Source: Alphaproteobacteria bacterium (GTDB lineage: Bacteria > Pseudomonadota > Alphaproteobacteria > Micavibrionales > Micavibrionaceae). From it: a stretch of 64,000 bases of DNA. Position numbers and translations under genes: made by a program. The stretch lies in NCBI GenBank assembly GCA_030750865.1, contig JASMHE010000006.1:62001-126000 (forward strand). Direction: 5' to 3'. Positions 1 through 14,889 of the stretch are shown here, piece after piece (positions within the stretch are counted from its first letter, which is position 1; the number at the start of each line of letters is the position of its first letter). The notes beneath the pieces were generated by a model. The model worked only from the letters and a program-made list of their open reading frames with translations, made no database searches and was not told the DNA's origin.

Positions 1-863
1 TTCCACAAGACAGGCCATCCCGCAATTAACGGATGACGCCGCTGGAACGCGCTCACCTCAACCTCGACACCGCTATGACGTTTGACTTTCCAGAGCGCGT
101 AATCAACACCATTTTCAAATGTAACACTTGATTTCAGGATACGCAGCAACGCCACAAGCTTGCGCAAAGGGCGATGCGCACGCCGCCGCAATTTTCCTTC
201 GCCGCCGCGCATCTCTTTTTCGGCGCGCCACATATCAAACCGCAATGTCGCGGCCTGTTCATGCGCCGCAAAGATTTCAGCCGCCCGCCCTTCGGATTCG
301 CTGCGCATCTCATCAGCATAGGTTTGCTGCAACCCGTTAACCCAGAATGACCGCGCGCTTTCTTCGTCGCCGCTAAATGGTGCGGCCATTTTGAAGAAAC
401 GGTCAACGGCAGCCGTAATATTGCGTGCAATACGATCTGTCATCGCTTCGCTTTCGGCATAAACCAAACGGCAGGGCTGTGCAAAACGGGCCCAGACCTG
501 CGGCGTAAAACTTTTGCCACGGCAGGCTTTTTCGAATTGCGATACGCGCATCACATTATATTTACAGCGCAAGATACGTCCCTGATATTCAAATTCCGTA
601 TAAAAAACATTGGGAGGCAAAAAACTGCCCATCACAGACAGAAATAAACGCTTGCGAAACCCCTTATAACGATGCACCAGAACATGCACATCCCAGATAC
701 GGTCTTCGGCATCCCCTTGCCACAGACCGGAGCCATACAGCAAAATCGCCGCAACAGAATCGCGGTTATCCGCATTATACCGAATATGCTGCGCCAGTGC
801 GGTCACGGTCTGTGAAACCGGCACAGATAAATCATTCGCAATATGTGTTTCCAAATCAAGCAT
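1..863 (-). CDS. Tam41-like phosphatidate (or lipid-phosphate) cytidylyltransferase, 3' end cut by window edge
   Basis: The reading frame starts at an ATG (861-863) and stays open for 287 codons to the left edge, so the C-terminus is missing. Residues about 44-60 read LLYGSGLWQG followed by WDVHVLV. This matches the nucleotidyltransferase GSG...D-x-hydrophobic signature of Tam41, the mitochondrial CTP:phosphatidate cytidylyltransferase that makes CDP-diacylglycerol. Downstream, the GSFLPPNVFYTEF, GRILRCKYNVM and RIARNITAAVDRFF stretches align by eye with human TAMM41 segments. The gene begins 2 bp after the stop of the lipid kinase gene and is clearly in the same transcript. Inference: it activates the phosphorylated lipid made by that kinase with CTP, at the membrane face. 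The substrate (phosphatidate or ceramide-1-phosphate) is not decided by the sequence. Confidence 0.72.
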   Translation of the reverse strand, partial: MLDLETHIANDLSVPVSQTVTALAQHIRYNADNRDSVAAILLYGSGLWQGDAEDRIWDVHVLVHRYKGFRKRLFLSVMGSFLPPNVFYTEFEYQGRILRCKYNVMRVSQFEKACRGKSFTPQVWARFAQPCRLVYAESEAMTDRIARNITAAVDRFFKMAAPFSGDEESARSFWVNGLQQTYADEMRSESEGRAAEIFAAHEQAATLRFDMWRAEKEMRGGEGKLRRRAHRPLRKLVALLRILKSSVTFENGVDYALWKVKRHSGVEVEVSAFQRRHPLIAGWPVLW

Positions 864-865
864 CT

Positions 866-1849
866 TTATTCAAACTCATAAACCTGTAACGGGGTTCCCT
901 GTTCTATCTCAAGTTCGGTCTGTCCGTCAAAATCATATAATGCACCATCCAACGTCCAACTTGCGGAGAACTTTAGCGCGACTTTCTGGTCCGTTGCAAA
1001 ACTAAAAAAAGCAGACGACCCGTCTTGCGGTGTTTTCCCGCGCCAAAACGGTACAAGCGAGGATAATAAACGGTAATACGGCACGCCAAGCCCGCCAATA
1101 CAATATTGTTGTCTCGTCGCATGGGTTTTGATTCCAAGCAATAAACGCGGCAACGCCGTCACATAAAACAAAACGGCATCACTATCGCGCCATTTATAAT
1201 CTTCAAAACCATATTGCACTTCCACAGGATGCAAAACGGGGTCTTCGTAAATATGGCCGCGCAATAATTTTATAATCATCTTCCCGATTGTCAGGACATG
1301 CCCGATCGCGCCGCGCAGCCCTTTTTCATGATAGGTGCTGCGTGAATAGGAAATCGCTTTCGGGATACCGGCCGTTCCGAAAAAGAAACCGTAAATCGGT
1401 TTATCCGTGCCTTTGACCTGCACTTTCAAAACCGGGCGCGCCTTGCAATACGGCGCGAAATCAGACCATGACGATGCCTGCGATGCCCGCTTTAAAATCT
1501 GTTTCAAGCCGCGCAGCACAGACCGGCCGCTTCCGCGCATCATATGGGTCATGTTGGTTGTGCCGCCGGGTAAAAAAGCAAAGGACGGCTCCAGCCCCGC
1601 ATCAAACAAATCACCCCCGCGCAGCAATGTCAGACAATCATCAATCGTGCCGTCACCACCATTGATGACAATCATGTCCACCCGTTGTTCCCGGCATGCA
1701 GACAGCGCGTCATACAGCGCGTCGTGATCCGCCGTCACATAATGCGGCACATGCGGATAATCCTGCAAAACAGCGTCAAGCTTTTGCAAATGCGTTTTGT
1801 TCCATCCGCTATGCGGGTTCGAAATGACGGCAATGCGCGGCGCTGTCAT
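866..1849 (-). CDS. DAGK-family lipid kinase (diacylglycerol / ceramide / sphingoid kinase-like)
   Basis: The protein has 327 residues. The N-terminus AVISNPHSG is the usual start of the DAGK catalytic domain, NGGDGTIDDCL (about residues 64-74) is the GGDGT nucleotide loop, and LPGGTTNM follows in the position of the usual P-x-GTxN motif. The family phosphorylates diacylglycerol, sphingosine or ceramide at the membrane. The ATG at 1849 overlaps the upstream CDP-alcohol transferase stop by ATGA, which fixes the start; a longer reading to 2002 is only overlap. The Tam41-like gene follows after 2 bp. Inference: it makes the lipid phosphate that the Tam41-like enzyme then activates. Ceramide kinase CpgB of Caulobacter is also a DAGK-family protein, so ceramide is a real alternative substrate. 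Confidence 0.85.
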   Translation of the reverse strand: MTAPRIAVISNPHSGWNKTHLQKLDAVLQDYPHVPHYVTADHDALYDALSACREQRVDMIVINGGDGTIDDCLTLLRGGDLFDAGLEPSFAFLPGGTTNMTHMMRGSGRSVLRGLKQILKRASQASSWSDFAPYCKARPVLKVQVKGTDKPIYGFFFGTAGIPKAISYSRSTYHEKGLRGAIGHVLTIGKMIIKLLRGHIYEDPVLHPVEVQYGFEDYKWRDSDAVLFYVTALPRLLLGIKTHATRQQYCIGGLGVPYYRLLSSLVPFWRGKTPQDGSSAFFSFATDQKVALKFSASWTLDGALYDFDGQTELEIEQGTPLQVYEFE

Positions 1850-2958
1850 CCGTTTTTCTCCAGCATCCACGATGTAACGGGGCGTCCACGCACACGACAC
1901 CATTCCGCCTGTGCGATTTGTACCAGATGCATAACAAAGGTTGCGCCGCCCCATGCCGTAATAATCAACAAGCCGATATCCGGCACAGCCAGCACCCAAC
2001 AAAATGTTAGCACAATCATATTCGGATTCCGGCGCGAACTGATCAACCGGAACACCGAGTCAAAACGGCGCCAGACATGGAGATGACAGCCATAGCGCGC
2101 AATAAAATAGCCCTCGCACAACCGGCCCAGCACATAAAAGGCAAACATCGCCCATAAAACAGGCGCAAGCCAGCCATCCGGCAACGCATGTCCGGCAACG
2201 CCCAAACCAAAGCCCCATGCGATATACCAAAATGGCGGATGTACCAGATCAATACCATGATCGAAAATATTACCGAACGGCGATGATGTCAGGGTCACGC
2301 GTGCAAGCTTGCCATCCACCGTATCCAGAAATGTCATGATCCAGCCTGCCAGCAAACCCCAGCCAAAATGTCCCTGCCAAAACAGCCACAACGCGGCAAA
2401 CATCAGGATCGCGCCAACCGTTGTCACCATATTGGGCGACAAGCGCGCTGCCGCACAAAGCCGCGTGACATGAAACGCAGGCACAGGCCAGACATATTTT
2501 GTGACGATATCGGTCACCCCCTTGTAAGAGCCCTGATAAAGCCGCCACTCAACAGCGCGGATATTATCCGCCGTCACGATCAGCGCAAACGGGTCTTCTT
2601 TTTTACGGAGCTGATCACGGTACGCATCGCCGCATTCTTCGGGCCGCGCAAGCGGCACATTATGCGGCGCATCGCCCTGCCCCAACAGCCAGAACCGTGC
2701 CGCCTCGGCCATATCGGCCGGAACAGTTGCCGCAAGCGGCACGCCATGTGCATCGGCCAGCAAAATATCTTTTTGGCACAGATCACGCAAAACAGCTTCG
2801 TCATAGACCGCATCGCCGCGCAAAATAACGATATGCCCGTCACGCTGTTCATATTTTTGCAAAATTTTACGACTGCGCTGTGACGGCGACATGCCCCAAA
2901 TGCGCAAATCCGTATCATGATTGATAATATCAATGGTATCGTGTGTGTCGTGGCTCAC
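1846..2958 (-). CDS. CDP-alcohol phosphatidyltransferase with N-terminal nucleotidyltransferase-like extension
   Basis: With the GTG at 2958 the protein has 370 residues. The signature D-x2-DG-x2-AR-x8-G-x3-D-x3-D is complete: D212, D215, G216, A219, R220, G229, D233, D237. Hydrophobic segments around it fit a six-helix CDP-alcohol phosphotransferase. Residues about 1-140 are soluble and carry an LRGDAVYDEAVL stretch like the metal-binding region of sugar/inositol-phosphate nucleotidyltransferases. The layout recalls the fused CTP:inositol-phosphate cytidylyltransferase/DIPP synthases, but no Gly-rich NTP loop is visible, so the extension may be inactive. A GTG start with AAGGG about 10 bp upstream was preferred because the upstream ATG (3042) would overlap the divergent phosphoesterase start. 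It transfers a phospho-alcohol between CDP and a second alcohol; the substrates are unknown. Confidence 0.82.
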   Translation of the reverse strand: MSHDTHDTIDIINHDTDLRIWGMSPSQRSRKILQKYEQRDGHIVILRGDAVYDEAVLRDLCQKDILLADAHGVPLAATVPADMAEAARFWLLGQGDAPHNVPLARPEECGDAYRDQLRKKEDPFALIVTADNIRAVEWRLYQGSYKGVTDIVTKYVWPVPAFHVTRLCAAARLSPNMVTTVGAILMFAALWLFWQGHFGWGLLAGWIMTFLDTVDGKLARVTLTSSPFGNIFDHGIDLVHPPFWYIAWGFGLGVAGHALPDGWLAPVLWAMFAFYVLGRLCEGYFIARYGCHLHVWRRFDSVFRLISSRRNPNMIVLTFCWVLAVPDIGLLIITAWGGATFVMHLVQIAQAEWCRVRGRPVTSWMLEKNG

Positions 2959-3034
2959 TTTAAATTTCCCTTTTGCGCCGATTTCCTCTATATATTCCGC
3001 TAGGATAAACAACCAACCAGCCTGATGCGGAGAA

Positions 3035-3922
3035 ATGAGCAAAACACGGTTCGCACATATTTCGGATCTTCACATGGCACCGCTGCCCGCATTGCAGCTA
3101 ACCGAGTGGAATATTAAGCGCATTCTAGGCTATGTCTCATGGCATAGCAAACGGAAGACCATGCACTGTGCACATGTTTTAGACGCCTTGAAACATGATC
3201 TAAAACGGCAAGCCCCCGATCATATCTGCGTGACGGGCGACCTTGTCAATCTGGGACTGGAACAGGAATATAAAAACAGCGCCTTATTGCTGCGCAGCCT
3301 CGGTCCGGCCAAGAATATCAGCATCATCCCCGGTAATCACGAAGCGTATGGCCGTCATTATAACGATTATATCAAACGCTATTGGTCCTCGTGGTTAAAA
3401 GACGATATGAATATCGCGGCCGATACGTTTCCTTATGTCCATATACGCGGCGACCATGCCTTTATCGGCATTTCCAGCGCCATCCCGACATGGCCGTTCA
3501 TGGCAAACGGATATGTCAGCGAAGAACAGTGCAACGCACTGGGCGAAATACTGGTGGAACTGGAAGCGCAAAATAAAACCCGCGTGATCATGATCCATCA
3601 TCCGCCGATCAGCGGACTGATACAGCCGCGCAAATCCCTGTCAAAACCCTATGCCTTTTTGGATATGGTGCGGGAATTCGGCGCAGAGCTGATTTTGCAC
3701 GGCCACGCCCACAAAGACTTTGATTACACAATCGAGGGCATGGATAAACCGATCCGTGTTTTGGGGGTCGGCAGTGCGTCTTACGATAATGAAGACATGC
3801 AGAAAAAAGGCCATTACCACATGATTACACTTGATGGACACGGCACAAATGTGCAACTTTCCATAGAGCATCGCCATTACAACATCGCAAAAGATATGTT
3901 CGAAGAAGGGAAACAGGCGTGA
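3035..3922 (+). CDS. Calcineurin-like metallophosphoesterase
   Basis: The protein has 295 residues and all five class motifs: D11-x-H13, G68-D69, GNHE 100-103, H188-H189 and GHAH 223-226. No signal peptide or membrane segment is seen, so it is probably cytoplasmic. The family (CpdA, LpxH and related two-metal phosphodiesterases) cleaves phosphomonoesters, cyclic nucleotides or nucleotide-lipid pyrophosphates. It is divergent from the CDP-alcohol transferase and overlaps the next gene (GTGA), so it is translationally coupled to a cytidylyltransferase. Inference from context: it may dephosphorylate a lipid intermediate or recycle a CDP-type product. The substrate cannot be read from the motifs. 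Confidence 0.85.
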   Translation: MSKTRFAHISDLHMAPLPALQLTEWNIKRILGYVSWHSKRKTMHCAHVLDALKHDLKRQAPDHICVTGDLVNLGLEQEYKNSALLLRSLGPAKNISIIPGNHEAYGRHYNDYIKRYWSSWLKDDMNIAADTFPYVHIRGDHAFIGISSAIPTWPFMANGYVSEEQCNALGEILVELEAQNKTRVIMIHHPPISGLIQPRKSLSKPYAFLDMVREFGAELILHGHAHKDFDYTIEGMDKPIRVLGVGSASYDNEDMQKKGHYHMITLDGHGTNVQLSIEHRHYNIAKDMFEEGKQA

Positions 3923-4686
3923 AGACGATTATTCTCAGTGCCGGTCAGGGAAAAAGATTATCGCCGCTAACCGATAATCTGCCCAAATGCCTGCTGGAAG
4001 TGCAACCATCTGTAACAATTCTGGAATGGCAAATGATGCAGTTGGACGCCGCCGGCGTCAGCGAAATTGTTATCGTCACAGGGTTTGAAGCCCAGCGCGT
4101 CGAAGACGCCATCGCAAATTTCCGCAAGACATACGCGCCCAAATGCACAATCCGCACCCTGTATAATCCGTTTTACAAAGTGGCCGATAATATCGGTAGT
4201 GTCTGGCTGGCCAAAGAAGAAATGGATGGCCCGTTCATGATTTTGAACGGTGACACATTGTTGACGACACAAACAGTCACGCGCTTATTAAATCAGGGCG
4301 ATATGCCGATTACACTGACCATCGCACAAAAAGACCAGTATGATTCCGATGATATGAAGGTCAGTCTGGACGGCGCGCAATTACGCCGCGTCGGGAAAAC
4401 ACTGGCCGCTGATATCGTGCATGGCGAGTCGATCGGCTTTATGAAATTCAGCGGCAACGGATCGGCCCTGTTCCGCGAGACTGTTGAAAAAGCCCTGCAT
4501 TCACAAGAAAACCTCAAACGCTGGTATTTGTCGATTATCGACGACATCGCGCAAAGCGGCGATCATGTCGGCACCGTCATTGCACCGCAATCAGAATGGT
4601 GCGAGGTTGATTTCCCCGTTGATCATAAAAAGGCCTGCGAAAAAGTGCAGGAATGGACAGAGTCACCGGTTGAAGCGATAGTCTGA
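3919..4686 (+). CDS. LicC-like phospho-alcohol cytidylyltransferase (NTP_transferase family)
   Basis: The protein has 255 residues. Its start MKTIILSAGQGKRLSPLT carries the G-x-G-x-R-L NTP loop, followed by PKCLLEV with the catalytic Lys, and NGDTLL (about residues 113-118) with the metal-binding Asp. The stretch NPFYKVADNIGSVWLA is typical of phosphocholine cytidylyltransferase-like (LicC) members more than of sugar-nucleotide enzymes. The GTG start at 3919 overlaps the phosphoesterase stop. Inference: it activates a small phospho-alcohol with CTP for the CDP-alcohol phosphotransferase encoded next door. It ends tail-to-tail, overlapping the DUF2147 gene by 24 bp. Confidence 0.8.
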   Translation: MKTIILSAGQGKRLSPLTDNLPKCLLEVQPSVTILEWQMMQLDAAGVSEIVIVTGFEAQRVEDAIANFRKTYAPKCTIRTLYNPFYKVADNIGSVWLAKEEMDGPFMILNGDTLLTTQTVTRLLNQGDMPITLTIAQKDQYDSDDMKVSLDGAQLRRVGKTLAADIVHGESIGFMKFSGNGSALFRETVEKALHSQENLKRWYLSIIDDIAQSGDHVGTVIAPQSEWCEVDFPVDHKKACEKVQEWTESPVEAIV

Positions 4687-5310
4687 GTGCCGCGCACTTT
4701 CCGGTTTCTTCTGCACATGTTCTGTTTCTATCCGCGGCGGCGGAGATGGTTTGCTGTCATCCGCAGTTTTCAGGCCTTTCTCGAACGTACGTTCCAGCGC
4801 ACGCTGCGCAGCAATCACCCGTTCATCGCACCCCGTATAACCGTCTTTTGAAACACGGGTCAGATATGTTGTCTTGCCCAGTGCCGGAAATCCCAGATAA
4901 CCGCGCAGATCAATTCGCTCCGCATCGACCTTTTCCAGCTTGGCCCGAAAGACCTTGCCGTCATCTGCCTTATAAATAAGCCCGTCACGCCACACATTGT
5001 CTTGATCCGGTTTTAAATCATATAAAACGCGCACGCCGCATAATGGCTGCCCCCGCAACGCCGGATCGGGGTTTTTACTATCAATTTGTTCAACCTGCGG
5101 ATCAAGCCAATAAATCCAGCCACAGCGCTGTGTACGATCCCGTCCGCAAGCATCAATACGCACCACAACATCTTTTTTCTTTGTCAGCCAGTATCCGACA
5201 ATATCACTATCATCCGCACGGGCTGTCTTGGCAAACGCCGTGTTGCCTGCCGATACGGCCACCATCATCAGCATCAGCATCAGCACAAACAAATAAACAG
5301 AACGCATCAT
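4663..5310 (-). CDS. DUF2147 secreted protein
   Basis: The protein has 215 residues. An N-terminal signal peptide of Met/Leu/Val-rich residues ends near AFA-KT (about residue 28). The mature part begins DIVGYWLTKKKDVVVRI and carries GWIYWLDP and two Cys pairs (Cys54/Cys62 region and Cys93), as in DUF2147 proteins, which are small periplasmic proteins of unknown function with a lipocalin-like look. The C-terminal 45 residues are charged and Pro-rich and are probably disordered. It overlaps the upstream nucleotidyltransferase stop (ATGA), so it is cotranscribed with the lipid genes. No enzymatic role can be assigned. Confidence 0.75.
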   Translation of the reverse strand: MMRSVYLFVLMLMLMMVAVSAGNTAFAKTARADDSDIVGYWLTKKKDVVVRIDACGRDRTQRCGWIYWLDPQVEQIDSKNPDPALRGQPLCGVRVLYDLKPDQDNVWRDGLIYKADDGKVFRAKLEKVDAERIDLRGYLGFPALGKTTYLTRVSKDGYTGCDERVIAAQRALERTFEKGLKTADDSKPSPPPRIETEHVQKKPESARHSDYRFNR

Positions 5311-6131
5311 GACATGGCCTCTTGCAGTAAAATTGTTTTCACCAAATCATAATCCTCCTGTTTATCGACATCAATCGCGGCGCGCGGATTTGCAACGCGT
5401 ACAGCACCGACATTCACACCGGTCAGTGTTGCTATCTTGCGGCACAGCACATCCAGCGTCAGGCGCTTTGTCATATATTTTACAAGGATCACAGGCCCCA
5501 GCATTTTCGCCATGCGAAGCGGCGATTTCCGCATATGCTGAATCTCTTGCCAGAAAGCCGGTAACGATAACGCATTTTTCGTGCCGAAGAAGAACAGATT
5601 GCAACCGCTGATCATCCCGTCCTTGAACGCCAGCTTTGTGCGCATGGTTTTCGGATATGAACGCAGCACATCATGCAAAAACGTAAAACCGAACGTCGCC
5701 TCGGCCTGACTTTGTACGGATTGTGTATAAAAATCGGTCAGGATACTCGCATTAAGCAGCGGATGGTCCGCCGTTGTCACAAGCACGGGCTTGAAATCAT
5801 CCTTATAATGCTTGGCCAGAAATGCAAACGCCTTTTCCAGACTGTCAACAATCGTGTCTTCGGGTTCGACCAGATGGATATTTTCCCGTCCTTCCGTCAA
5901 CATGAAATCGATAAACAAATCTGTTTCACCGATAATCACAATGCTGCGGCATATATCGGCATTCTGTGCCGCATCCATGACATAGGATATTAACGGCTGG
6001 CCGTTCATCGGGATCAACCCTTTTGAATCAACATTATGCATATGCAAAAACGCATCACGCCGATCGCGGCGTCCGGCCAATATAATCAGGTCACTCTGCG
6101 GGTACTGTTGTGTATCGTCTTTTGTGTCCAT
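5307..6131 (-). CDS. MobA-like nucleotidyltransferase family protein
   Basis: With the ATG at 6131 the protein has 274 residues. The N-terminal LIILAGRRDRRDAFL is a variant NTP loop: the usual GGxGxR glycines are replaced by Arg/Asp. It is followed by KGLIPMNGQPLISYVM, the expected catalytic Lys and homing segment, and VTTADHPLL, a metal-binding TADxP motif. This variant loop occurs in a subgroup of MobA-like transferases, so activity is likely but the substrate is unknown. It starts 4 bp after the acyltransferase stop; an alternative ATG lies at 6161. Inference: it provides a second activated head group or sugar for the lipid made by this operon. Confidence 0.72.
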   Translation of the reverse strand: MDTKDDTQQYPQSDLIILAGRRDRRDAFLHMHNVDSKGLIPMNGQPLISYVMDAAQNADICRSIVIIGETDLFIDFMLTEGRENIHLVEPEDTIVDSLEKAFAFLAKHYKDDFKPVLVTTADHPLLNASILTDFYTQSVQSQAEATFGFTFLHDVLRSYPKTMRTKLAFKDGMISGCNLFFFGTKNALSLPAFWQEIQHMRKSPLRMAKMLGPVILVKYMTKRLTLDVLCRKIATLTGVNVGAVRVANPRAAIDVDKQEDYDLVKTILLQEAMS

Positions 6132-6135
6132 ATGG

Positions 6136-7269
6136 TTACTGTACACCGATCTGTTTTTCATACAAGCGGTAACGCCGTGATATCCGTCCGCCGAACATTT
6201 CAATCATACGGCACATGGCTGTATTGTCTTCCAGAATCCATGACATTTCCAATGTTGTATAGCCGCGCTTGATCACTTCGTCCTGCACACGCTGCACCAG
6301 ATACGCCGATAACGCGGCCGATAACGCCGTTCCCTTATATTTTTTGGCCGTCCCCATTAATAAAACACGGGCGGTGTTGATATGCCCGCCCTTCAGCCGC
6401 ATCAGTAACTTCAGAAATCCGAAAGGAAACAGCTTTCCGTCCAGACCGTGTAGCGCCTGATTCACATCCGGCAAGGCAACGATCATCGCCGCAGGTTCTC
6501 CGTCAACAAATGCAATACGGGCCATATCCGGCACAATAATGGGGCGGAGTGATGCCCCCATATGCCCGATTTCCTCATCATCCATCGGCACAAAACCCCA
6601 ATTGTCCGACCAGGCATCATTGAACAAGGTCATAATAATATCCAGATCATCACGGAAATGCGTCATACGGACCGGACGTTCGCTCAAGCCATCCATAGCG
6701 GCGGCCTGTTTAACCATATAAGATGCCGCACGCGGGAAATCACGGGTTGCATCCACATCATAGGCCAGCAAATCTTTAGCCTTTTCGAACCCGTCATCGA
6801 CCAGAACATCTTTGTAAAACGGCTTGGCATAGTTCATCATCAGGCGCGGGGGATGTTCAAACCCGTCAACCAACAAACCGGATTCATCGTTCGTGGAAAA
6901 ACTATACGGTCCGGCAATACGGCGCATGCCTTTTTCGGTCAAGTGCGTTTCCGCCCGTTTCATCAGTGCCTGTATTGTTTGTGAATCCTGACCTTCTAGA
7001 AAGCCAAAATGACCCGTTTTTGTTGCAATGGCCTGTTTATTATGATGATCAATATGCACAGCAATGCGCCCGGATGGCCGGTCATGGAAATCATACGCCA
7101 CAAACAAGCGCACATCGGCATGGTTGAAAAACGGATTTTTCGGCCCAAAATGCGCCTTCATTTCTATGTCCGGCCGGAACACATAATGATCAATATTGTC
7201 ATACAGCACATGCGGCACGCGCACAAAATCGGCCAGATCCTTTTTGGTTTCAACCGCCTTAATCCGCAT
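6136..7269 (-). CDS. GNAT-fold N-acyltransferase of the bacterial ceramide synthase (bCerS)/YghO-like family
   Basis: The protein has 377 residues. The N-terminal half contains FVRVPHVLY, NPFFNHADVRLFVAY and DESGLLVDGFEHPP; the C-terminal half has a GNAT-like end with LLMGTAKKYKGTALS and LEMSWILEDNTAM. This arrangement is what I recognise from the family that includes E. coli YghO and the Caulobacter ceramide synthase bCerS, which N-acylates a sphingoid base using acyl-CoA. The start ATG at 7269 has GGAAAA just upstream and overlaps the hydroxylase stop by 11 bp. The neighbours (lipid kinase, hydroxylase, LptFG) fit a lipid substrate. Uncertain: generic GNAT amine acetylation is still possible, and no serine palmitoyltransferase is in the window. 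Confidence 0.68.
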   Translation of the reverse strand: MRIKAVETKKDLADFVRVPHVLYDNIDHYVFRPDIEMKAHFGPKNPFFNHADVRLFVAYDFHDRPSGRIAVHIDHHNKQAIATKTGHFGFLEGQDSQTIQALMKRAETHLTEKGMRRIAGPYSFSTNDESGLLVDGFEHPPRLMMNYAKPFYKDVLVDDGFEKAKDLLAYDVDATRDFPRAASYMVKQAAAMDGLSERPVRMTHFRDDLDIIMTLFNDAWSDNWGFVPMDDEEIGHMGASLRPIIVPDMARIAFVDGEPAAMIVALPDVNQALHGLDGKLFPFGFLKLLMRLKGGHINTARVLLMGTAKKYKGTALSAALSAYLVQRVQDEVIKRGYTTLEMSWILEDNTAMCRMIEMFGGRISRRYRLYEKQIGVQ

Positions 7270-8050
7270 CTTTTTTCCAATATTGTCGTTGTCCGATGCC
7301 TTTTTCAATTGCGTCTTCTTCGGAAATATCTTTGGTATGCCGCGCCACCCACGGGAATAATTTTACAATCTTTCCGGTATAGCCCAGATTAAAAACAGTC
7401 GGGCTCTTTTTCACCGCGCGCGGATCGTGGTTAAATGTGCCCAATAATTTATCGGGCACAAAATTGGTAATACCGTAATTATGATTTTCATCATGAAAGT
7501 GATGTTGCAAGTGCAGCTTTTTCATCTTTTTCAGGAAGTTGCTTTTCGGTGTGTATTTCAAATGCTGGATACAATGACAAAATTCATAAAAACACGTCAC
7601 GAACAAACCTGTCGAAAGGGCCGCAAACGCGCACGGCAACCCGCCAATCAGATAGCCGATCGGCGAGATCAAAAACAAGATCGTCGGCAATGTTGTATAA
7701 AGCGCGCCAAACAGAACCTTCAAATCATGCGGATCGCGATGATGATCGAAATGAATGCGCTTCCATATTCTGGCCGTCAATGGTGATTTATACAAGTAAG
7801 ACCCATGCAGAACAAAACGGTGCAACAGATACCAGATCAGCGGGTAAAGCATAATCACCACCACCACAGACAAGGCCACCTGCCACCATGATGTTTCACC
7901 TTCATACACGGCCTTTCCGGCCAGAAACCCGAAACACAGCCCCAGCACGATATAAACCTGAATCGCAAGATACATGAAATAGGCGATCCATAATTCGCCC
8001 AGTGTCATTTTATCCAGCCGGTAATCTTTTTTCCAAAAATTCAGATCCAT
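7259..8050 (-). CDS. Membrane fatty-acid/sterol hydroxylase-type di-iron oxygenase
   Basis: The protein has 263 residues with four hydrophobic segments. It carries the histidine clusters of the fatty acid hydroxylase superfamily: HRFVLH, HFDHH, FCHCIQH and HLQHH followed by HDENHN. These ligate two irons on the cytoplasmic side and support hydroxylation or desaturation of an acyl chain or sphingoid base. The start (ATG 8050, with AAGGA 7 bp upstream) was chosen over a long overlap with lptG. It lies between lptG and the ceramide-synthase-like gene on one transcript. Inference: it hydroxylates the acyl or sphingoid chain of the lipid made here. Confidence 0.85.
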   Translation of the reverse strand: MDLNFWKKDYRLDKMTLGELWIAYFMYLAIQVYIVLGLCFGFLAGKAVYEGETSWWQVALSVVVVIMLYPLIWYLLHRFVLHGSYLYKSPLTARIWKRIHFDHHRDPHDLKVLFGALYTTLPTILFLISPIGYLIGGLPCAFAALSTGLFVTCFYEFCHCIQHLKYTPKSNFLKKMKKLHLQHHFHDENHNYGITNFVPDKLLGTFNHDPRAVKKSPTVFNLGYTGKIVKLFPWVARHTKDISEEDAIEKGIGQRQYWKKDAD

Positions 8051-8097
8051 CATTTTATCCTTCGGCAATGCGGCATCTTTACAACCCTTTGTCGTTT

Positions 8098-9240
8098 TTA
8101 TGACCGTTCCTGCATTAACGCAAGCCATGCCATGATAATCACGGCCGTAAGCGGCGCAGCGAAACTTGCGACAAAAACCGGAAGCTGCGCACTTTCCGCC
8201 AACGCGAATAAGATACGCTCTGCTATAAAATAGAAAAACCCGCATAACGTCAAAAGAAATCCGAATGACAATAGCGACCCGCGCCGTGATATGCGAAGTG
8301 CAATCGGCAGGGCAATCAACACCATAATCAGACAGGCCAGCGGCTGTGATATTTTTTGCAAGACCCATAACTTGTAAATATAGGCAGGCTTGCCCTGCGC
8401 GGCGATATAATCACGCTGCGATAACAGATCGAATATTCCGAATTCTTCGGCCTTATGCTTTTGCGTTTCGGCCCCGTAAGAAAACACAGATGGCTGCAAC
8501 GGCAACGGAATAGTCAGCTCTTCGCCGTCACCGATGTCAATCTCGGCGACCTGCGGAACATCTTCGTTATTGCTGATATGCGCCCGCCCGAAATCCGGCT
8601 CGCGCACTTGCGACAATTTCCAGTCATCCCCCATATAAAGCGCCTGTTCGGCCAGAATATAGCGCACCAACATGCCATTTTCATCGCGTTCCAGATATCG
8701 CAGACCTTCCAGATATTTGCCGTCCGCGCTTGCGCTTTCAACATAGAAAAGGTGATTGCCTTTTTTAAACCAGATCGCTTTCATCGGCGCAGCATTCTTG
8801 CCGATTTGCGGCGTGCCCTGATAATCCAACGATTTCCACTGGTTCAGTAAAACAGCGCTTTGCGGCGCAACCATATTGGCCAGCGAGAATTGCAAGACGG
8901 CAAACAGCCCGCCTGCAATCAACAAAAAGCCCGCAATACGGTACAGCGGAAACCCCGCTGCGCGCAGTGCAATAATTTCCTGTGTGTTGACACGTTTTGA
9001 CAACACCATCAGGCAAGACAGCAATACCGCAATCGGAATGGCCGTCACCGCGATCAACGGCAAACGCAGTCCGGCATAGATCAACAAGGCCGACAAGATA
9101 TGATCCTGAAACGCCAACACATCTTCGGCATTGGCCATCACATCAAATAACAAAAGCAGCATCGTCATGGCAAAGACGATGAACAGCCCGCGTGATAAAA
9201 CAGGCACAAAGAAATAACGCGCCATAATCTTATTCATCAT
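8098..9240 (-). CDS. lptG: LptG-type permease of the LptF/LptG (YjgQ) family
   Basis: The protein has 380 residues with three N-terminal and three C-terminal membrane helices around a periplasmic jelly-roll domain (about residues 125-280). The region after helix 2 reads LLSCLMVLSKRVNTQEIIALRAAG, the conserved coupling helix that contacts LptB. With LptF and the LptB ATPase it extracts LPS from the inner membrane into the Lpt bridge. Its ATG overlaps the lptF stop (ATGA). In most alphaproteobacteria lptG is followed by lptD-surA-pdxA; here a fatty-acid hydroxylase and a ceramide-synthase-like gene follow. It may therefore be a second, lipid-dedicated LptG, which is inference only. Confidence 0.88.
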   Translation of the reverse strand: MMNKIMARYFFVPVLSRGLFIVFAMTMLLLLFDVMANAEDVLAFQDHILSALLIYAGLRLPLIAVTAIPIAVLLSCLMVLSKRVNTQEIIALRAAGFPLYRIAGFLLIAGGLFAVLQFSLANMVAPQSAVLLNQWKSLDYQGTPQIGKNAAPMKAIWFKKGNHLFYVESASADGKYLEGLRYLERDENGMLVRYILAEQALYMGDDWKLSQVREPDFGRAHISNNEDVPQVAEIDIGDGEELTIPLPLQPSVFSYGAETQKHKAEEFGIFDLLSQRDYIAAQGKPAYIYKLWVLQKISQPLACLIMVLIALPIALRISRRGSLLSFGFLLTLCGFFYFIAERILFALAESAQLPVFVASFAAPLTAVIIMAWLALMQERS

Positions 9241-10460
9241 GGGGCACCTCTCACGGTGCGTGATATCAGATAAAGCGCATCAGACAGCGCTTCTTTCACC
9301 GTCACCCCCGCAAGTCGCAGGAACAAAATCACAGATACAGACGCAATAACGGTAAATGGAAACCATACGGCCAGCGCAGGTGAAACAACGTCATTGCGCA
9401 CCATCGTTTCGCCGATACCCAGAATTTTTTCATACAGAATTAAAATCAGAACACCCAGCACAATACCGGTCGCCTTGCCAGACCGCCCCGATCCGATCAA
9501 AGAAAGCGGCAAAGCCAGAAAAGCCAGCACAGGCAAAGATAACACACTGACAAGGCGGGCATGCAGTTCGGCCTGCATCTTACCGCGTTCAATATCGTGG
9601 TTTACATTATCCGGTCCGCCGGAAAACAGCTCCGGCAATGTCATTTCCCGTTCATCCTGCCCGCGCACACCATAGGGTTCATGCGGCGGCACAGGTAAAC
9701 GCCACGGATAGGCATTCACCGATAAAAGCGAGGGATCTTCACCGGGTTTTTCCTGAATAATCTGACCATCCTGTAACAAAATCGTCAGCCGCTTATCCGC
9801 GCCTTTGATGTCTTTCAACTCTTTGGGCGATACAACAATCGCCTGCGAGGCCAAAATGAACGTACGGCGTTTGCCATCTGCCGCATAATCACCGTCATTG
9901 AGCGTATTATCGTCCTTTTGCACATCAGCAAAAAAGCCGAACAAGACACTGCCATCGCGGCTGACACGATCGGCCCGCAAGGTAATATCATCGCCGATTT
10001 TCTGGAACACGCCCGGCTTGACGCGCAATGTCTGATAGCCCGCCGACACATTCTGTAATTCCGCTCTGTAGGAATAACGACCGATCGGTTGACCGAACGC
10101 CACAATTAAAAACATGACAATCATCATCACCAACGAAAATAAAAGCGCCGGACGAATAAGTAATCCATAAGGCATGCCCGCAGATTGCATCACAACCAGT
10201 TCGGATTGTTCGTGCATCTTACGAAAGGCAAGCATCACCGATAAAAACAAGGCCGCCGGAATTGCAAGCCCCAGATAATGCGGCTGTAAATATGCCAACA
10301 GCGATATGGCCGCGCCGAACGACGCGCCTTCACCGACAACGACATCAATAATGCGTAAAAACCGCTCCAGCGATAAAGCCAGCAGAATGACGATCACCGT
10401 CAGGGCAAAAGGCACCGTCAGGTTGCGCAACAAATATCGGGATAATGTATGCATCGCCAT
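9237..10460 (-). CDS. lptF: LptF-type permease of the LptF/LptG (YjgP) family
   Basis: The protein has 407 residues. The start HTLSRYLLRNLTVPF and the helix-loop SVMLAFRKMHEQSELVVMQSAGMP (coupling helix) are typical of LptF. A periplasmic beta-rich domain spans about residues 140-290, and three more helices follow. It partners with the LptG encoded next to it and with an LptB ATPase that is not in this window. The ATG at 10460 is followed by a second ATG two codons later; either could be used. It lies 15 bp downstream of the HIT gene on the same strand. Confidence 0.88.
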   Translation of the reverse strand: MAMHTLSRYLLRNLTVPFALTVIVILLALSLERFLRIIDVVVGEGASFGAAISLLAYLQPHYLGLAIPAALFLSVMLAFRKMHEQSELVVMQSAGMPYGLLIRPALLFSLVMMIVMFLIVAFGQPIGRYSYRAELQNVSAGYQTLRVKPGVFQKIGDDITLRADRVSRDGSVLFGFFADVQKDDNTLNDGDYAADGKRRTFILASQAIVVSPKELKDIKGADKRLTILLQDGQIIQEKPGEDPSLLSVNAYPWRLPVPPHEPYGVRGQDEREMTLPELFSGGPDNVNHDIERGKMQAELHARLVSVLSLPVLAFLALPLSLIGSGRSGKATGIVLGVLILILYEKILGIGETMVRNDVVSPALAVWFPFTVIASVSVILFLRLAGVTVKEALSDALYLISRTVRGAP

Positions 10461-10475
10461 ATCCTAAAAAAGGGT

Positions 10476-10916
10476 TCAATCACGGCCCACCGGCCACGCA
10501 TCCGAAATCGTTTTCAGCAAATCCGTCATCACAGCATCCGAAAAACCGATATCATCACCCAATTGCGGCAATGCAGGCCATCCGGCATCAACACTTTCGA
10601 TCCCGGCAAATTCTTTGGTCTGTTCGTAACGCGGGATCACATGATAATGGACATGCGGATCAACCATCATCAGCATCATGTAATTGATTTTGTTAAACGC
10701 AAAAAGATTGCCGAGCGTTTTTTCAATATGATCCGTTACAATTTTCAATTCAGCGAAGCTTTGTTCATCAATATCCGACAACGCCGTCGCACCGGACTTA
10801 TGAACAACAACCAGCGCCCCTAATGTCGGCTGTTTCGGGCGCAGCAAGACAACCCAGTTTCTGTATTCCCGTATCAAACTTGCCGGAAAGCCGAATGTTT
10901 TCATTGTCTGATTCAT
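10476..10916 (-). CDS. HIT-family nucleotide hydrolase/transferase
   Basis: The protein has 146 residues. The histidine triad DPHVHYHVIPR (H-x-H-x-H) lies at about residues 86-96, which defines the HIT fold that cleaves nucleoside phosphoramidates, dinucleotides or AMP/UMP conjugates through a covalent His. Asn at about 76 (FNKINYMM) lies where the usual Asn precedes the triad. The start ATG (10916) has AAGGA 6 bp upstream. It is the first gene of the minus-strand unit leading into lptF-lptG and is divergent from the flippase gene, with a 55 bp shared promoter space. The substrate is unknown. Confidence 0.9.
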   Translation of the reverse strand: MNQTMKTFGFPASLIREYRNWVVLLRPKQPTLGALVVVHKSGATALSDIDEQSFAELKIVTDHIEKTLGNLFAFNKINYMMLMMVDPHVHYHVIPRYEQTKEFAGIESVDAGWPALPQLGDDIGFSDAVMTDLLKTISDAWPVGRD

Positions 10917-10971
10917 ATAAATTCCTTTATTGTGAACATGTTATTTATATAGAAGGTTCAGTATAAAAGAA

Positions 10972-12282
10972 ATGGCGAAAGCGCAAAACACACAGTCCAA
11001 AATGTGGAAACGTCCGTTCAAAAATGCAGGTATCTTGCTGTTGGGGCGGGGAACGCAGGGGATATTGTCTCTGGTCTATCTGGCGCTTGCCGCGCGCACA
11101 CTCGGCGCAGCCGGTTTCGGGAACCTTGTTATCATTCACAGTCTGGTTCTGACCGCAGCGCAGCTCATCCGGTTCCAGACATGGCAAGCCGTGATGCGTT
11201 ATGGTGATGACGCACTCAAGCAAAACGACATCAAAACATTTCAGGACATCAACCTGTTCGCCGTCTTTCTGGATTTCATCAGTGCCGTGATTTGTGCAGG
11301 CGGCCTGATTTTATTTCTGAATTATTGTTACGGCATCACGGGCCTGCAAGCCGAAATCGAACCGCTGGCCAAACTGTATGCCCTCGGCAGTATCTTTGTC
11401 ATGCTCGGCTCTGCGCCACTTGGATATCTGCGTCTTGCCGACCGTCACGACCTTATCGCGATCCAGACAACCGTTGAGCCCGCCATCCGTTTTATCGGGG
11501 CGATCATTCTGTTCTTTATCAACGGCCCGCTGGAAGCATTTTTGATTTTATGGTTTGCCGCGATGACTGCAAGCCGTATCACATTAATGGTCATCGCCGT
11601 GCGGACGATGCGGAAAGAAAATCTCTGGTCCGACTTCACGGTGCGCCCTGCAAAAATTCTGCATCCTGTTTCCGGAATCTGGCGCTATGTCTGCGGCACG
11701 CAACTGACATCAACATTAAATATCACAAACGGTCCGATCGGCACGATTCTCGCCGGTGCGTTGCTGGGCGCACCCGCCGCCGGTATCTTCCGGGTGGCAC
11801 AGCAATTTGCCGATATTCTGATTAAACCCGTCAATAAATTACTTGTTCCCGCGATCTATACCGACATGACACAATCCGCAGGAAACAGAACAATTTTGAA
11901 AGATTTGTCTGTCAAAACAGCCTTATTTGCCGGCGCGCCGTCACTGGGTATCTTTATCATTCTGGTTGCCGCCGGCAAAGTCCTGATTACAGCCACGGTC
12001 GGCACGGAATATCTGGGCGCTTACACCCCGATGATTATTCTGGCACTGTCCGGCATTGCGATGGTGGCCACATTTCCGCTGGAACCATTATTAATCACCG
12101 CCGGAAAAGTCCGCGAAACGGCGCTAATCCGTTTTCTGACCGTACTGATTTATTTTCTCGGTTTCCTTGCACTCGCCCCGCTTTTCGGGATCACAGGCGC
12201 GGCGACGGCCACAGCCATTTCAACCGTCTGCACGGCACTGCTGTTCTGGCTGTCGGGTGCACTCTATCTGAAAGAAAAATAA
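10972..12282 (+). CDS. Wzx-type polysaccharide flippase (MOP superfamily)
   Basis: The protein has 436 residues with about 12 hydrophobic segments. The N-terminal pattern GILLLGRGTQGILSLVYLALAARTLG followed by AAGFGNLVI is the standard oligosaccharide-flippase (RfbX/Wzx) opening. Such proteins move lipid-linked oligosaccharides across the inner membrane. A CDP-glycerol-type transferase gene follows 6 bp later, so the two probably act on one surface polymer. It is divergent from the HIT-lptFG unit. Confidence 0.85.
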   Translation: MAKAQNTQSKMWKRPFKNAGILLLGRGTQGILSLVYLALAARTLGAAGFGNLVIIHSLVLTAAQLIRFQTWQAVMRYGDDALKQNDIKTFQDINLFAVFLDFISAVICAGGLILFLNYCYGITGLQAEIEPLAKLYALGSIFVMLGSAPLGYLRLADRHDLIAIQTTVEPAIRFIGAIILFFINGPLEAFLILWFAAMTASRITLMVIAVRTMRKENLWSDFTVRPAKILHPVSGIWRYVCGTQLTSTLNITNGPIGTILAGALLGAPAAGIFRVAQQFADILIKPVNKLLVPAIYTDMTQSAGNRTILKDLSVKTALFAGAPSLGIFIILVAAGKVLITATVGTEYLGAYTPMIILALSGIAMVATFPLEPLLITAGKVRETALIRFLTVLIYFLGFLALAPLFGITGAATATAISTVCTALLFWLSGALYLKEK

Positions 12283-12288
12283 TCCGTC

Positions 12289-13425
12289 ATGATGCATATC
12301 GGTTTTCTTCTCAACCATTATACAGGGCATCAGGCCTATCACGTCTTGCCGATTGCCTATGCCTTATCGGGCAACAAAGACGTCAAGGTCAGCATCATCG
12401 TGTCCAGCACTGCGCTGCATAAAATGGCACGTGACCTCGGCGATGTCTGGGGCGCGCATCGTTGCCACATTATCAAAGCCCGCGTACCGTTTTGGGTTGA
12501 TTTGATTGATCCGCTCACGCGGCAGTTTATCTTCCTGAAAAAGAAAGCGGTCCTTGACCACAATACGGCGCTTTTCAAAACGCTCGACGCACTTGTCGTA
12601 CCGGAGAAAACCTCACTATCCCTGAAGAAGAATAAAGCGCTAGCACATCTGAAAATGGTCCGCATTCGTCATGGCGCGGGTGATCGCACCACAGGATTGG
12701 ATGACAGCAACAAAGCGTTCGACCTTATTCTGACATCGGGACACAAAATGCAAGAACGCCTGATGAGCGATCAGAACATCGCCAAAGAAAAACTTCCAAT
12801 CATCGGTTATCCGAAATTTGATATGATTGATAAACTGCCGCCGCCGCGCCCTTTGTTCAATAATAACAAAAAAACCGTGCTGTATAATCCGCATTTCCGG
12901 CGCGATGAGTCATCCTGGGTCAAAATGGGCATGGATGTGCTGCACTTTTTCAAAGACAGTAATGATTACAATCTCATTTTCGCGCCGCATATCCTGCTAT
13001 ATCAACGGGCTCTGCGGCACGGGGCAAAAAACCTCCATGCCTTTAAGAATTGCCCGAACATCCATATTGACACCGGCAGCGATGCGTTGATCGACATGAC
13101 CTACACACGGCAAACCGACATCTATCTTGGCGATGTCAGCAGTCAAATTTACGAATTTCTACGCCAGCCCCGCCCCTGTCTGTTTTTAAACGCGCACCAC
13201 ATCCATGACTGGCAGAACAAACAGACATTCAAACATTGGCAGTGCGGTGATGTCTGCGAGTCGATAGACGATCTGGAACACGCACTGACACAGATAGACA
13301 CATGGAAAAATCGCTATTTACACACTCAAAAACAGCTGCTTGACGACACATTCAGCCAGAAAGGCACTGCAAGCCGTAACGCGGCGCGGGCAATCGTGAA
13401 TTATTTAGAAATCACACAAGGTTAG
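12289..13425 (+). CDS. CDP-glycerol glycerophosphotransferase-like (TagB/TagF family) protein
   Basis: The protein has 378 residues. The N-terminal half begins IGFLLNHYTGHQAYHVLPIAYAL, and the C-terminal half has a GT-B-like layout: VLYNPHFRRDESSW (in the place of the TagF YAPTWR segment), NLIFAPHI, and DIYLGDVSSQIYEFL (in the place of TDYSSV). The family transfers glycerol-phosphate from CDP-glycerol to an acceptor, although many Gram-negative members have unknown donors. No membrane segment is seen. It is coupled to the upstream flippase. Capsule or surface-glycan modification is likely; a link to the CTP-using lipid locus is possible but not shown. Confidence 0.65.
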   Translation: MMHIGFLLNHYTGHQAYHVLPIAYALSGNKDVKVSIIVSSTALHKMARDLGDVWGAHRCHIIKARVPFWVDLIDPLTRQFIFLKKKAVLDHNTALFKTLDALVVPEKTSLSLKKNKALAHLKMVRIRHGAGDRTTGLDDSNKAFDLILTSGHKMQERLMSDQNIAKEKLPIIGYPKFDMIDKLPPPRPLFNNNKKTVLYNPHFRRDESSWVKMGMDVLHFFKDSNDYNLIFAPHILLYQRALRHGAKNLHAFKNCPNIHIDTGSDALIDMTYTRQTDIYLGDVSSQIYEFLRQPRPCLFLNAHHIHDWQNKQTFKHWQCGDVCESIDDLEHALTQIDTWKNRYLHTQKQLLDDTFSQKGTASRNAARAIVNYLEITQG

Positions 13426-13500: not shown

Positions 13501-14889
13501 ATGCGCAATCTTCTCAAGCCTTTTTTCTATGCCACAGTGGTTACGTTACTCTTTCTCGTTCCCTCCCTTGCGGCTGCAGCCGAACAAGGTAGCTTACATG
13601 CGGTTAAACACCCGTCTGCAATTTTCTGCCTGATTATCTTCATCATTTCTTATATTTTTGTTTTGTTTGAAGAGAAAATTCACCTCAGTAAATCAAAACC
13701 GGTCCTGCTCGGCGCCGGACTGATCTGGGTCATCATCGCAATGATTGCGCCGTCTTATGGCGTTGATCACCATGAACTGCGTTATGCTGTCTTTCATGGT
13801 TTGGAGGAATATGGCAGTTTAATGCTCTTCTTGCTCTCGGCCATGACCTATATTGCAACCTTGCAAAACCGGAATGTTTTCGCCGTGATGCGTGCAAAAC
13901 TGGTGAATGCCGGCCTGAACCTGAAACAGCTGTTCTGGGCGACCGGCATTCTCGCATTCTTCCTGTCTCCTATTGCAGATAACCTTACTACAGCATTGGT
14001 TCTGGGCGCTGTTGTCATGGCTGTCGGACGCGGGAATGCAAAATTCATTTCCATCAGCTGCGTGAATATCGTCAGCGCGGCAAATGCGGGCGGCGCGTTC
14101 AGCCCGTTTGGTGACATCACAACATTGATGGTCTGGCAAGCTGGAAAAGCTGACTTTTTCGAGTTCTTCGACCTGTTCCTGCCATCTCTGGTCTGTTTCC
14201 TGATCCCTGCGATCGTGATGACATTCTTCATTGATAATGATAAGCCGGAGCCGGTGAAAGAAGACATTCACATTCTGCGCGGCGGTAAACTCATTATCGG
14301 TCTTGGCATTCTAACCATTGCAATGGCTGTCAGCTTCGAACAGGTTCTCGGCTTGCCGCCATTTCTCGGCATGATGACAGGCCTGTCATTCCTGATGTTT
14401 GCCGCATACTGGATCGGCCATTTTGGCCCGCGTCCTGAGAAGGATTTCGACATTTTCAACAAAATTGCCGAAGCCGAGTGGGACACACTCCTGTTCTTCT
14501 TTGGCGTTATTTTCAGTGTCGGTGGTCTTGGTTATATCGGCTATCTCGAGATGGTATCAAACTACATGTATGACGGCTGGGGTCACAGCGCGACAAACAT
14601 CTTCCTCGGTTTTGCCTCTGCAATCATCGACAACATCCCTGTTATGTTTGCGGTACTGAGCATGAACCCAGAAATGGATCACTTCCAGTGGCTCTTGATT
14701 ACATTGACAGCCGGTGTCGGCGGCACGATGCTATCCATCGGGTCTGCCGCAGGTGTTGCCCTGATGGGAACGGCGAAAGGACATTACACATTCATGTCTC
14801 ACCTGAAATGGACACCTATTCTGTTCCTCGGATATGCCGCTGCCGTTGCCGTACACTTTTTAGTGAACTGGCACCATATGCATGGCTAA
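13501..14889 (+). CDS. nhaD: NhaD-type Na+/H+ antiporter
   Basis: The protein has 462 residues and 12-13 hydrophobic segments after a signal-like N-terminus (SLAAAAEQG). The diagnostic ion-transporter segments are FFLSPIADNLTTALVLG, SAANAGGAFSPFGDITTLMVW and, in the second half, ASAIIDNIPVMFAVLSM with GVGGTMLSIGSAAGVALMG. These inverted Asp-Asn-x-Thr and Asp-Asn-Ile-Pro repeats form the NhaD core. The start is ATG with AGGGTG upstream. It exchanges Na+ or Li+ for protons across the inner membrane. The codon pattern (more GTT/CTT) differs a little from its neighbours. Confidence 0.92.
   Translation: MRNLLKPFFYATVVTLLFLVPSLAAAAEQGSLHAVKHPSAIFCLIIFIISYIFVLFEEKIHLSKSKPVLLGAGLIWVIIAMIAPSYGVDHHELRYAVFHGLEEYGSLMLFLLSAMTYIATLQNRNVFAVMRAKLVNAGLNLKQLFWATGILAFFLSPIADNLTTALVLGAVVMAVGRGNAKFISISCVNIVSAANAGGAFSPFGDITTLMVWQAGKADFFEFFDLFLPSLVCFLIPAIVMTFFIDNDKPEPVKEDIHILRGGKLIIGLGILTIAMAVSFEQVLGLPPFLGMMTGLSFLMFAAYWIGHFGPRPEKDFDIFNKIAEAEWDTLLFFFGVIFSVGGLGYIGYLEMVSNYMYDGWGHSATNIFLGFASAIIDNIPVMFAVLSMNPEMDHFQWLLITLTAGVGGTMLSIGSAAGVALMGTAKGHYTFMSHLKWTPILFLGYAAAVAVHFLVNWHHMHG

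Follow-up and report, generated by a model that had tools for sequence, protein, structure and literature searches.

The left end of the 64,000-nucleotide stretch of DNA analysed here (the window; positions 62001 to 126000 of contig C6 in the 2.19 Mb, 99.75% complete genome G000 of an alphaproteobacterium of the family Micavibrionaceae) carries a gene cluster that, in our reading, directs the synthesis and export of a phosphosphingolipid of the Caulobacter CPG/CPG2 type. The cluster includes a pair of Lpt permease genes, lptF2 and lptG2 (LptFG2), whose products would serve the sphingolipid while the canonical LptFG pair of the same genome serves lipopolysaccharide (LPS); we put the probability of this reading at about 0.78. 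We also consider it likely, from comparison of genomes, that LptF2/LptG2 form a dedicated sphingolipid branch feeding the same LptD as LPS, and that eleven or more families of Alphaproteobacteria have given up canonical LptFG along with LPS synthesis, the remaining Lpt system exporting sphingolipid only. If so, the Lpt machine is not inherently a machine for LPS. The cluster type and the LptFG2 export proposal are already known from Caulobacter (2024); the pattern of LPS loss, the residues that mark the exporter type and the clustered hydroxylase gene are new here.

The genome has exactly two lptFG pairs: the cluster pair on C6 and a canonical pair on contig C7, beside pepA, mlaA and mlaC. A preliminary description of the window had expected a second pair beside lptD. 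The second pair exists, but lptD, single-copy in the genome, lies on contig C8 and adjoins neither pair. For the same reason the absence of lptD, surA and pdxA around the cluster pair, which had been taken as the sign of an orphan pair, is not diagnostic, the canonical C7 pair not being beside lptD either. On the LPS-exporter equivalog models TIGR04407/TIGR04408 the C7 pair scores above the cut-offs (231 and 252 bits), whereas the cluster pair fails both, LptF with 212 bits against 230 and LptG with 202 against 240. In the two trees, built from about 60 sequences apiece, canonical LptF and canonical LptG lie on one side of a branch, apart from the cluster type, with a support of 100 in both trees; in the LptF tree the window's class-mates are interspersed among named Sphingomonas, Dongia, Kordiimonas and Niveispirillum, which makes Alphaproteobacteria very probable as their class. 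As a separate observation on C7, three tandem large membrane proteins (L007:12270-19975; 903, 926 and 703 residues) without a Pfam match stand beside the canonical lptFG, mlaA and mlaC and resemble the DotA/TraY type by eye.

The export reading is carried by a comparison of 40 alphaproteobacterial genomes that hold a gene for a bacterial ceramide synthase (bCerS)-like protein. LpxC is absent from 22 of the 40 and LpxK from the same 22, and because they are without both, these genomes should make no LPS. Twenty of the 22 keep two or three LptFG genes together with LptD. The kept genes are of the cluster type in all 19 genomes that were placed in the trees, and a canonical pair was seen in none of the 20, which span eleven families (f13, f29, f38, f40, f59, f67, f77, f81, f94, f132 and f147). 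Among genomes with lipid A genes, 16 of 18 hold at least four LptFG genes; the two exceptions, G035 and G079, have ceramide genes, but the stretch fetched around these holds neither head-group genes nor LptFG2. All but a few of the compared genomes have a single LptD, which would therefore be common to both lipids. Read most simply, we argue, this pattern means that LptFG2 carries the sphingolipid through the shared Lpt machine. Export by the cluster's own LptFG pair, as the preliminary description had suggested, thus gains strong comparative support from the clades and from the LPS-less genomes that keep LptFG2 and LptD, and these genomes are independent support for the Caulobacter proposal. 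No earlier report of the pattern was found in the literature searched, a search whose coverage stopped short of subscription journals and most preprints.

The two exporter types also differ in their residues. Canonical alphaproteobacterial LptG carries a dibasic pair where its first transmembrane helix meets the periplasm (RR in 15, QR in 2 and RK in 1 of 18 sequences), aligned to K40/K41 of E. coli LptG, which bind the 4'-phosphate and inner core of LPS (PMC6744409). Cluster LptG is mostly acidic or neutral at these positions, with ED in the window, and cluster LptF has [ED][RK] in 40 of 40 sequences where canonical LptF has TQ in 17 of 20. The cluster pair thus resembles the canonical exporter LptB2FG in Pfam family and in the gene order lptF-lptG, but differs from it in its separate clades and sub-threshold equivalog scores, in the replacement of the LPS-contacting basic pair of LptG, and in being kept by LPS-less genomes. 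With exporter-type residues named and natural LPS-free organisms pointed out, the substrate of LptFG2 becomes directly testable. LptG K34, tried as a further discriminator, was dropped; the aligned residue is Asp in the window genome's own canonical LptG.

The cluster spans about 57.5 to 75.4 kb of C6, that is, window positions 1 to 13425 plus 4.4 kb further left. All genes first listed for positions 1 to 10460 were confirmed in the sequence, with domain calls based on Pfam and NCBIfam; they are contiguous, as described before, with four ATGA/GTGA overlaps (1846/1849, 3919/3922, 5307/5310 and 9237/9240). Start codons of the listed genes were corrected, the kinase start being set at MTAPRIAV. 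The left extension (C6:57571-61965) holds genes for serine palmitoyltransferase (SPT), an acyl carrier protein (ACP), a CerR-like protein and a fatty acyl-AMP ligase (FAAL). SPT and acyl carrier genes had been predicted to lie there, and indeed the SPT gene stops 36 bases short of window position 1, with the ACP gene beside it. The right extension (10476-13425) brings a HIT protein, a MOP flippase and a PF04464 transferase, in the same order as in the sister genome G300 (L073). The genes within the window are:

1..863, minus strand: CpgC (CC_1161)-like Tam41-related nucleotidyltransferase, stop codon just left of the window edge (family alignment)
866..1849, minus strand: DAGK-family lipid kinase, ceramide kinase CpgB (CC_1160)-like (PF00781 E 1.6e-13; synteny)
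1846..3042, minus strand: CDP-alcohol phosphotransferase, CpgA (CC_1159)-like (PF01066 E 6.7e-10; synteny)
3035..3922, plus strand: metallophosphoesterase, CC_1158-like (PF00149 E 1e-17; synteny)
3919..4686, plus strand: LicC/CpgD (CC_1152)-like cytidylyltransferase (PF00483; PDB LicC 1jyk E 2.9e-11; motifs)
4663..5310, minus strand: secreted DUF2147 protein, a rare companion (PF09917 E 4.4e-27)
5307..6131, minus strand: second nucleotidyltransferase, CC_1153-like (PF12804 E 1.1e-9; adjoins bCerS in most loci)
6136..7269, minus strand: bCerS (CC_1154)-like tandem GNAT protein (20-member alignment; AlphaFold model)
7259..8053, minus strand: Scs7/FA2H-type fatty-acid hydroxylase (PF04116 E 7.4e-18; histidine clusters; Scs7 matches)
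8098..9240, minus strand: LptG2, CC_1155-like, putative sphingolipid-type LptG (PF03739; below equivalog cut-off; separate clade)
9237..10460, minus strand: LptF2, CC_1156-like, putative sphingolipid-type LptF (PF03739; below equivalog cut-off; separate clade)
10476..10916, minus strand: HIT-domain protein (PF01230)
10972..12282, plus strand: MOP/Wzx-type flippase, candidate CC_1166 counterpart (PF01943 E 6.2e-14; homologues in other clusters)
12289..13425, plus strand: CDP-glycerol:glycerophosphotransferase (TagB/TagF)-like protein (PF04464 E 7.7e-10; homologues in clusters L073, L146 and L172)

The gene for the HIT-domain protein (10476-10916) lies immediately 5' of lptF2 in the window and in nine related loci. 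The DUF2147 gene (4663-5310), which overlaps the cluster, is also present in L072 and L073 and near the Euryhalocaulis cluster (L099).

The SPT scores 604 bits on the curated model NF047599 (cut-off 500), against 330 on the bioF model, whose own cut-off is 426, and in the PDB it matches Sphingomonas-type SPT structures (2x8u) with E 2e-139, leaving KBL, AONS and ALAS far behind. Its neighbours encode the ACP, the CerR-like SDR protein and the FAAL, the last with 759 bits on NF006624 (cut-off 600). For the 6136-7269 product, no Pfam or NCBIfam model scored over its cut-off and a profile of the family found no significant match among PDB sequences; its AlphaFold model (pLDDT 88) is closest in the PDB to the tandem GNAT structure 7q3a (Z 24.7 over 305 residues), with N-myristoyltransferases among the matches. 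Homologues adjoin SPT or head-group genes in Sphingomonas, Nitrosomonas, Kordiimonas and others, and in most homologous loci the gene sits with SPT/CerR/ACP/FAAL or with kinase/CpgC genes. Fold and neighbourhood both agree with the earlier identification of this protein as bCerS-like. We predict a bacterial ceramide synthase-like enzyme that would N-acylate 3-ketosphinganine.

Directly upstream of the bCerS gene and on the same strand lies the hydroxylase gene (7259-8053), an arrangement found in all 26 loci that have it, out of 40 related loci. The histidine clusters are all invariant in 20 sequences, the sequence matches Scs7 with E 4.5e-16, and in structure it clearly resembles only yeast Scs7p, which hydroxylates the very-long-chain fatty acid of ceramide (PDB 4zr0/4zr1), with Z 15.2 against 2.7 for the next unrelated chain. 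The likeness lies in the hydroxylase-domain fold and the histidine clusters; identity is 23% and the match is confined to that domain. The hydroxylase is absent from the 17 named genes of the Caulobacter cluster in the published gene list, and hydroxylation in Caulobacter was attributed to a distant DesA-family gene, CC_0202 (PMC11324152). No earlier description of the hydroxylase-bCerS adjacency was found in the literature searched. The enzyme would act on the acyl chain or the base, and a SUR2-type C4 hydroxylation is also possible. A clustered hydroxylase is a possible source of hydroxylated sphingolipids; in Caulobacter, such lipids have been connected with sensitivity to polymyxin.

Searched for across the class, the GNAT protein has relatives in 40 of 289 genomes. 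The DNA flanking these relatives, compared over as much as 20 kb, holds the same gene set with its order shuffled. Among named genomes, a scan recovered the set in Alphaproteobacteria, Nitrospirota, Thermodesulfobacteriota, Nitrosomonas and Gammaproteobacteria, so that it is now seen in dozens of loci; no named Caulobacter species is among the 80 loci kept from that scan. Within the window's own family the distribution is patchy: only 3 of 99 genomes hold an SPT match better than E 1e-100. LptFG2 tends to occur with phosphate head-group genes. Strict tracking of the two was rejected: 24 loci have both, 9 have neither and 7 differ, the last being partly cut contigs and including four with LptFG2 but without head-group genes in reach. 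A Thermodesulfobacteriaceae cluster (L146:1363-13621) brings together LptB (349 bits against 240), LptF/G, an MsbA-like exporter and a PF04464 transferase, and by holding LptB and the MsbA-like exporter it lends independent support to sphingolipid export by LptFG2.

The closest known system is the Caulobacter crescentus phosphosphingolipid cluster CC_1168-CC_1152, which includes a second LptC/F/G and a flippase (Olea-Ozuna et al. 2024, PMC11324152). Both have FAAL, CerR-, ACP, SPT, CpgC-, CpgB- and CpgA-like genes in one region, together with CC_1158-, CC_1153-, bCerS-, LptG2-, LptF2- and CpgD-like genes and a flippase. The window adds the Scs7-like hydroxylase upstream of bCerS, the PF04464 transferase and DUF2147. 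In Caulobacter, LptC2/F2/G2 and the flippase were proposed, untested, to carry phosphosphingolipid to the outer membrane, a route drawn from gene position and mutant cofitness alone (PMC11324152). According to a 2024 JBC paper on localization, a flippase or transporter had yet to be identified (PMC11087976), and both papers state the route of bacterial sphingolipids to the outer membrane to be unknown.

From gene content, conserved neighbourhoods, clades, the presence and absence pattern and predicted folds, a pathway can be proposed, with enzyme activities, lipid structure and an outward direction of transport as its conditional parts. The FAAL would load a fatty acid onto the dedicated ACP, and SPT would condense the acyl group with serine. 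In the cytoplasm bCerS would add a second acyl chain and the CerR-like protein would reduce the product, the Scs7-like enzyme hydroxylating acyl chain or base. The DAGK-family kinase would then form ceramide-1-phosphate, to which CpgC, the CDP-alcohol phosphotransferase, CpgD and the CC_1153-like enzyme would attach one or more CTP-activated head groups, probably phosphoglycerate. LptF2/LptG2, presumably with a shared LptB ATPase, would take the finished lipid out of the inner membrane and hand it over, by way of a shared Lpt bridge, LptA included, to the single LptD. The window organism also has lipid A genes, and would use canonical LptFG for LPS and LptFG2 for the sphingolipid.

The CpgA-, CpgB-, CpgC- and CpgD-like and the CC_1153- and CC_1158-like genes adjoin the ceramide genes and make up the Caulobacter-type CPG/CPG2 set; the earlier Tam41-like guess holds, 3 of 19 CpgC-family members matching Tam41_Mmp37 (best E 3.1e-6). 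The 3919-4686 product has the GxGKR, LPK and NGD motifs, and its counterpart in Caulobacter, CpgD, makes CDP-glycerate with phosphoglycerate as substrate (PMC12275187). The substrate cannot be read from these motifs and among solved structures LicC, a phosphocholine cytidylyltransferase, is the nearest, so a sphingolipid on which the LicC-like enzyme activates phosphocholine, phosphoethanolamine or another phospho-alcohol, moved onto ceramide by the CDP-alcohol phosphotransferase, is a real if lesser possibility; the joint presence of the six counterparts, as in a CPG2 maker, and the substrate of CpgD speak for phosphoglycerate instead. With CpgD supplying CDP-glycerate, the PF04464 protein and flippase might even lengthen the head group on ceramide to a short poly(phosphoglycerate) chain, a polymer resembling teichoic acid that LptFG2 would bring to the cell surface. 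A TagB/F-like gene does follow the flippase in two genomes of the window's genus, and homologues occur in sphingolipid clusters of one Thermodesulfobacteriaceae and one Stagnimonas genome, but the gene is in few clusters, could serve a capsule or other glycan, and no chain has been seen; we regard such a polymer as unlikely. The preliminary description had left the choice between a phosphorylated, CTP-activated sphingolipid, which the gene set supports, and an unusual glycerophospholipid, which it does not. Kinase, CDP-alcohol phosphotransferase and Tam41-like enzyme could use diacylglycerol, but SPT, dedicated ACP, FAAL, CerR-like and bCerS-like genes adjoin them and all these genes are conserved together, making a glycerophospholipid highly improbable.

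For the exporter, the competing explanation is a spare or conditional LPS exporter located by chance in a sphingolipid cluster. The cluster pair does belong to the canonical family, and LptD is shared and single-copy. Against this, the clades are separate, the diagnostic residues differ, and 20 genomes without LpxC and LpxK keep only the cluster type; we consider this explanation quite improbable. Several points nevertheless weigh against sphingolipid export by LptFG2. An association of LPS loss with LptFG2 is not function, and although LPS status and LptFG gene number are associated with a Fisher p of 2.4e-9, relatedness leaves four or five independent contrasts, all agreeing, with which a sign test cannot reach 0.05. 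Two LPS-less genomes of family f67, G066 (L078) and G280 (L081), have SPT, bCerS and CerR genes and are without LpxC, LpxK, LptFG, LptD and LptC; they apparently have an outer membrane without any Lpt system. The LptG residue signature is suggestive only, because K40E/K41E is tolerated in E. coli LptG with growth unaffected (PMC5548808). Unlike Caulobacter, the window genome has no second LptC scoring over the cut-off, which a single PF06835 match exceeds; the same-genus genome G300 has two, and the second LptC (CC_1168) is also absent from published relatives such as Nitrosomonas eutropha (PMC11324152). Orthology to the Caulobacter proteins, finally, is judged from published gene order and domain content.

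Composition gave no sign of a recent foreign island, the GC content of the cluster being 50-51% against 49% elsewhere. A gene for an NhaD/CitMHS-type transporter (13501-14889) follows the cluster in the window and in G300 (68% identity), and because it is shared with this sister genome its linkage to the cluster may be old.

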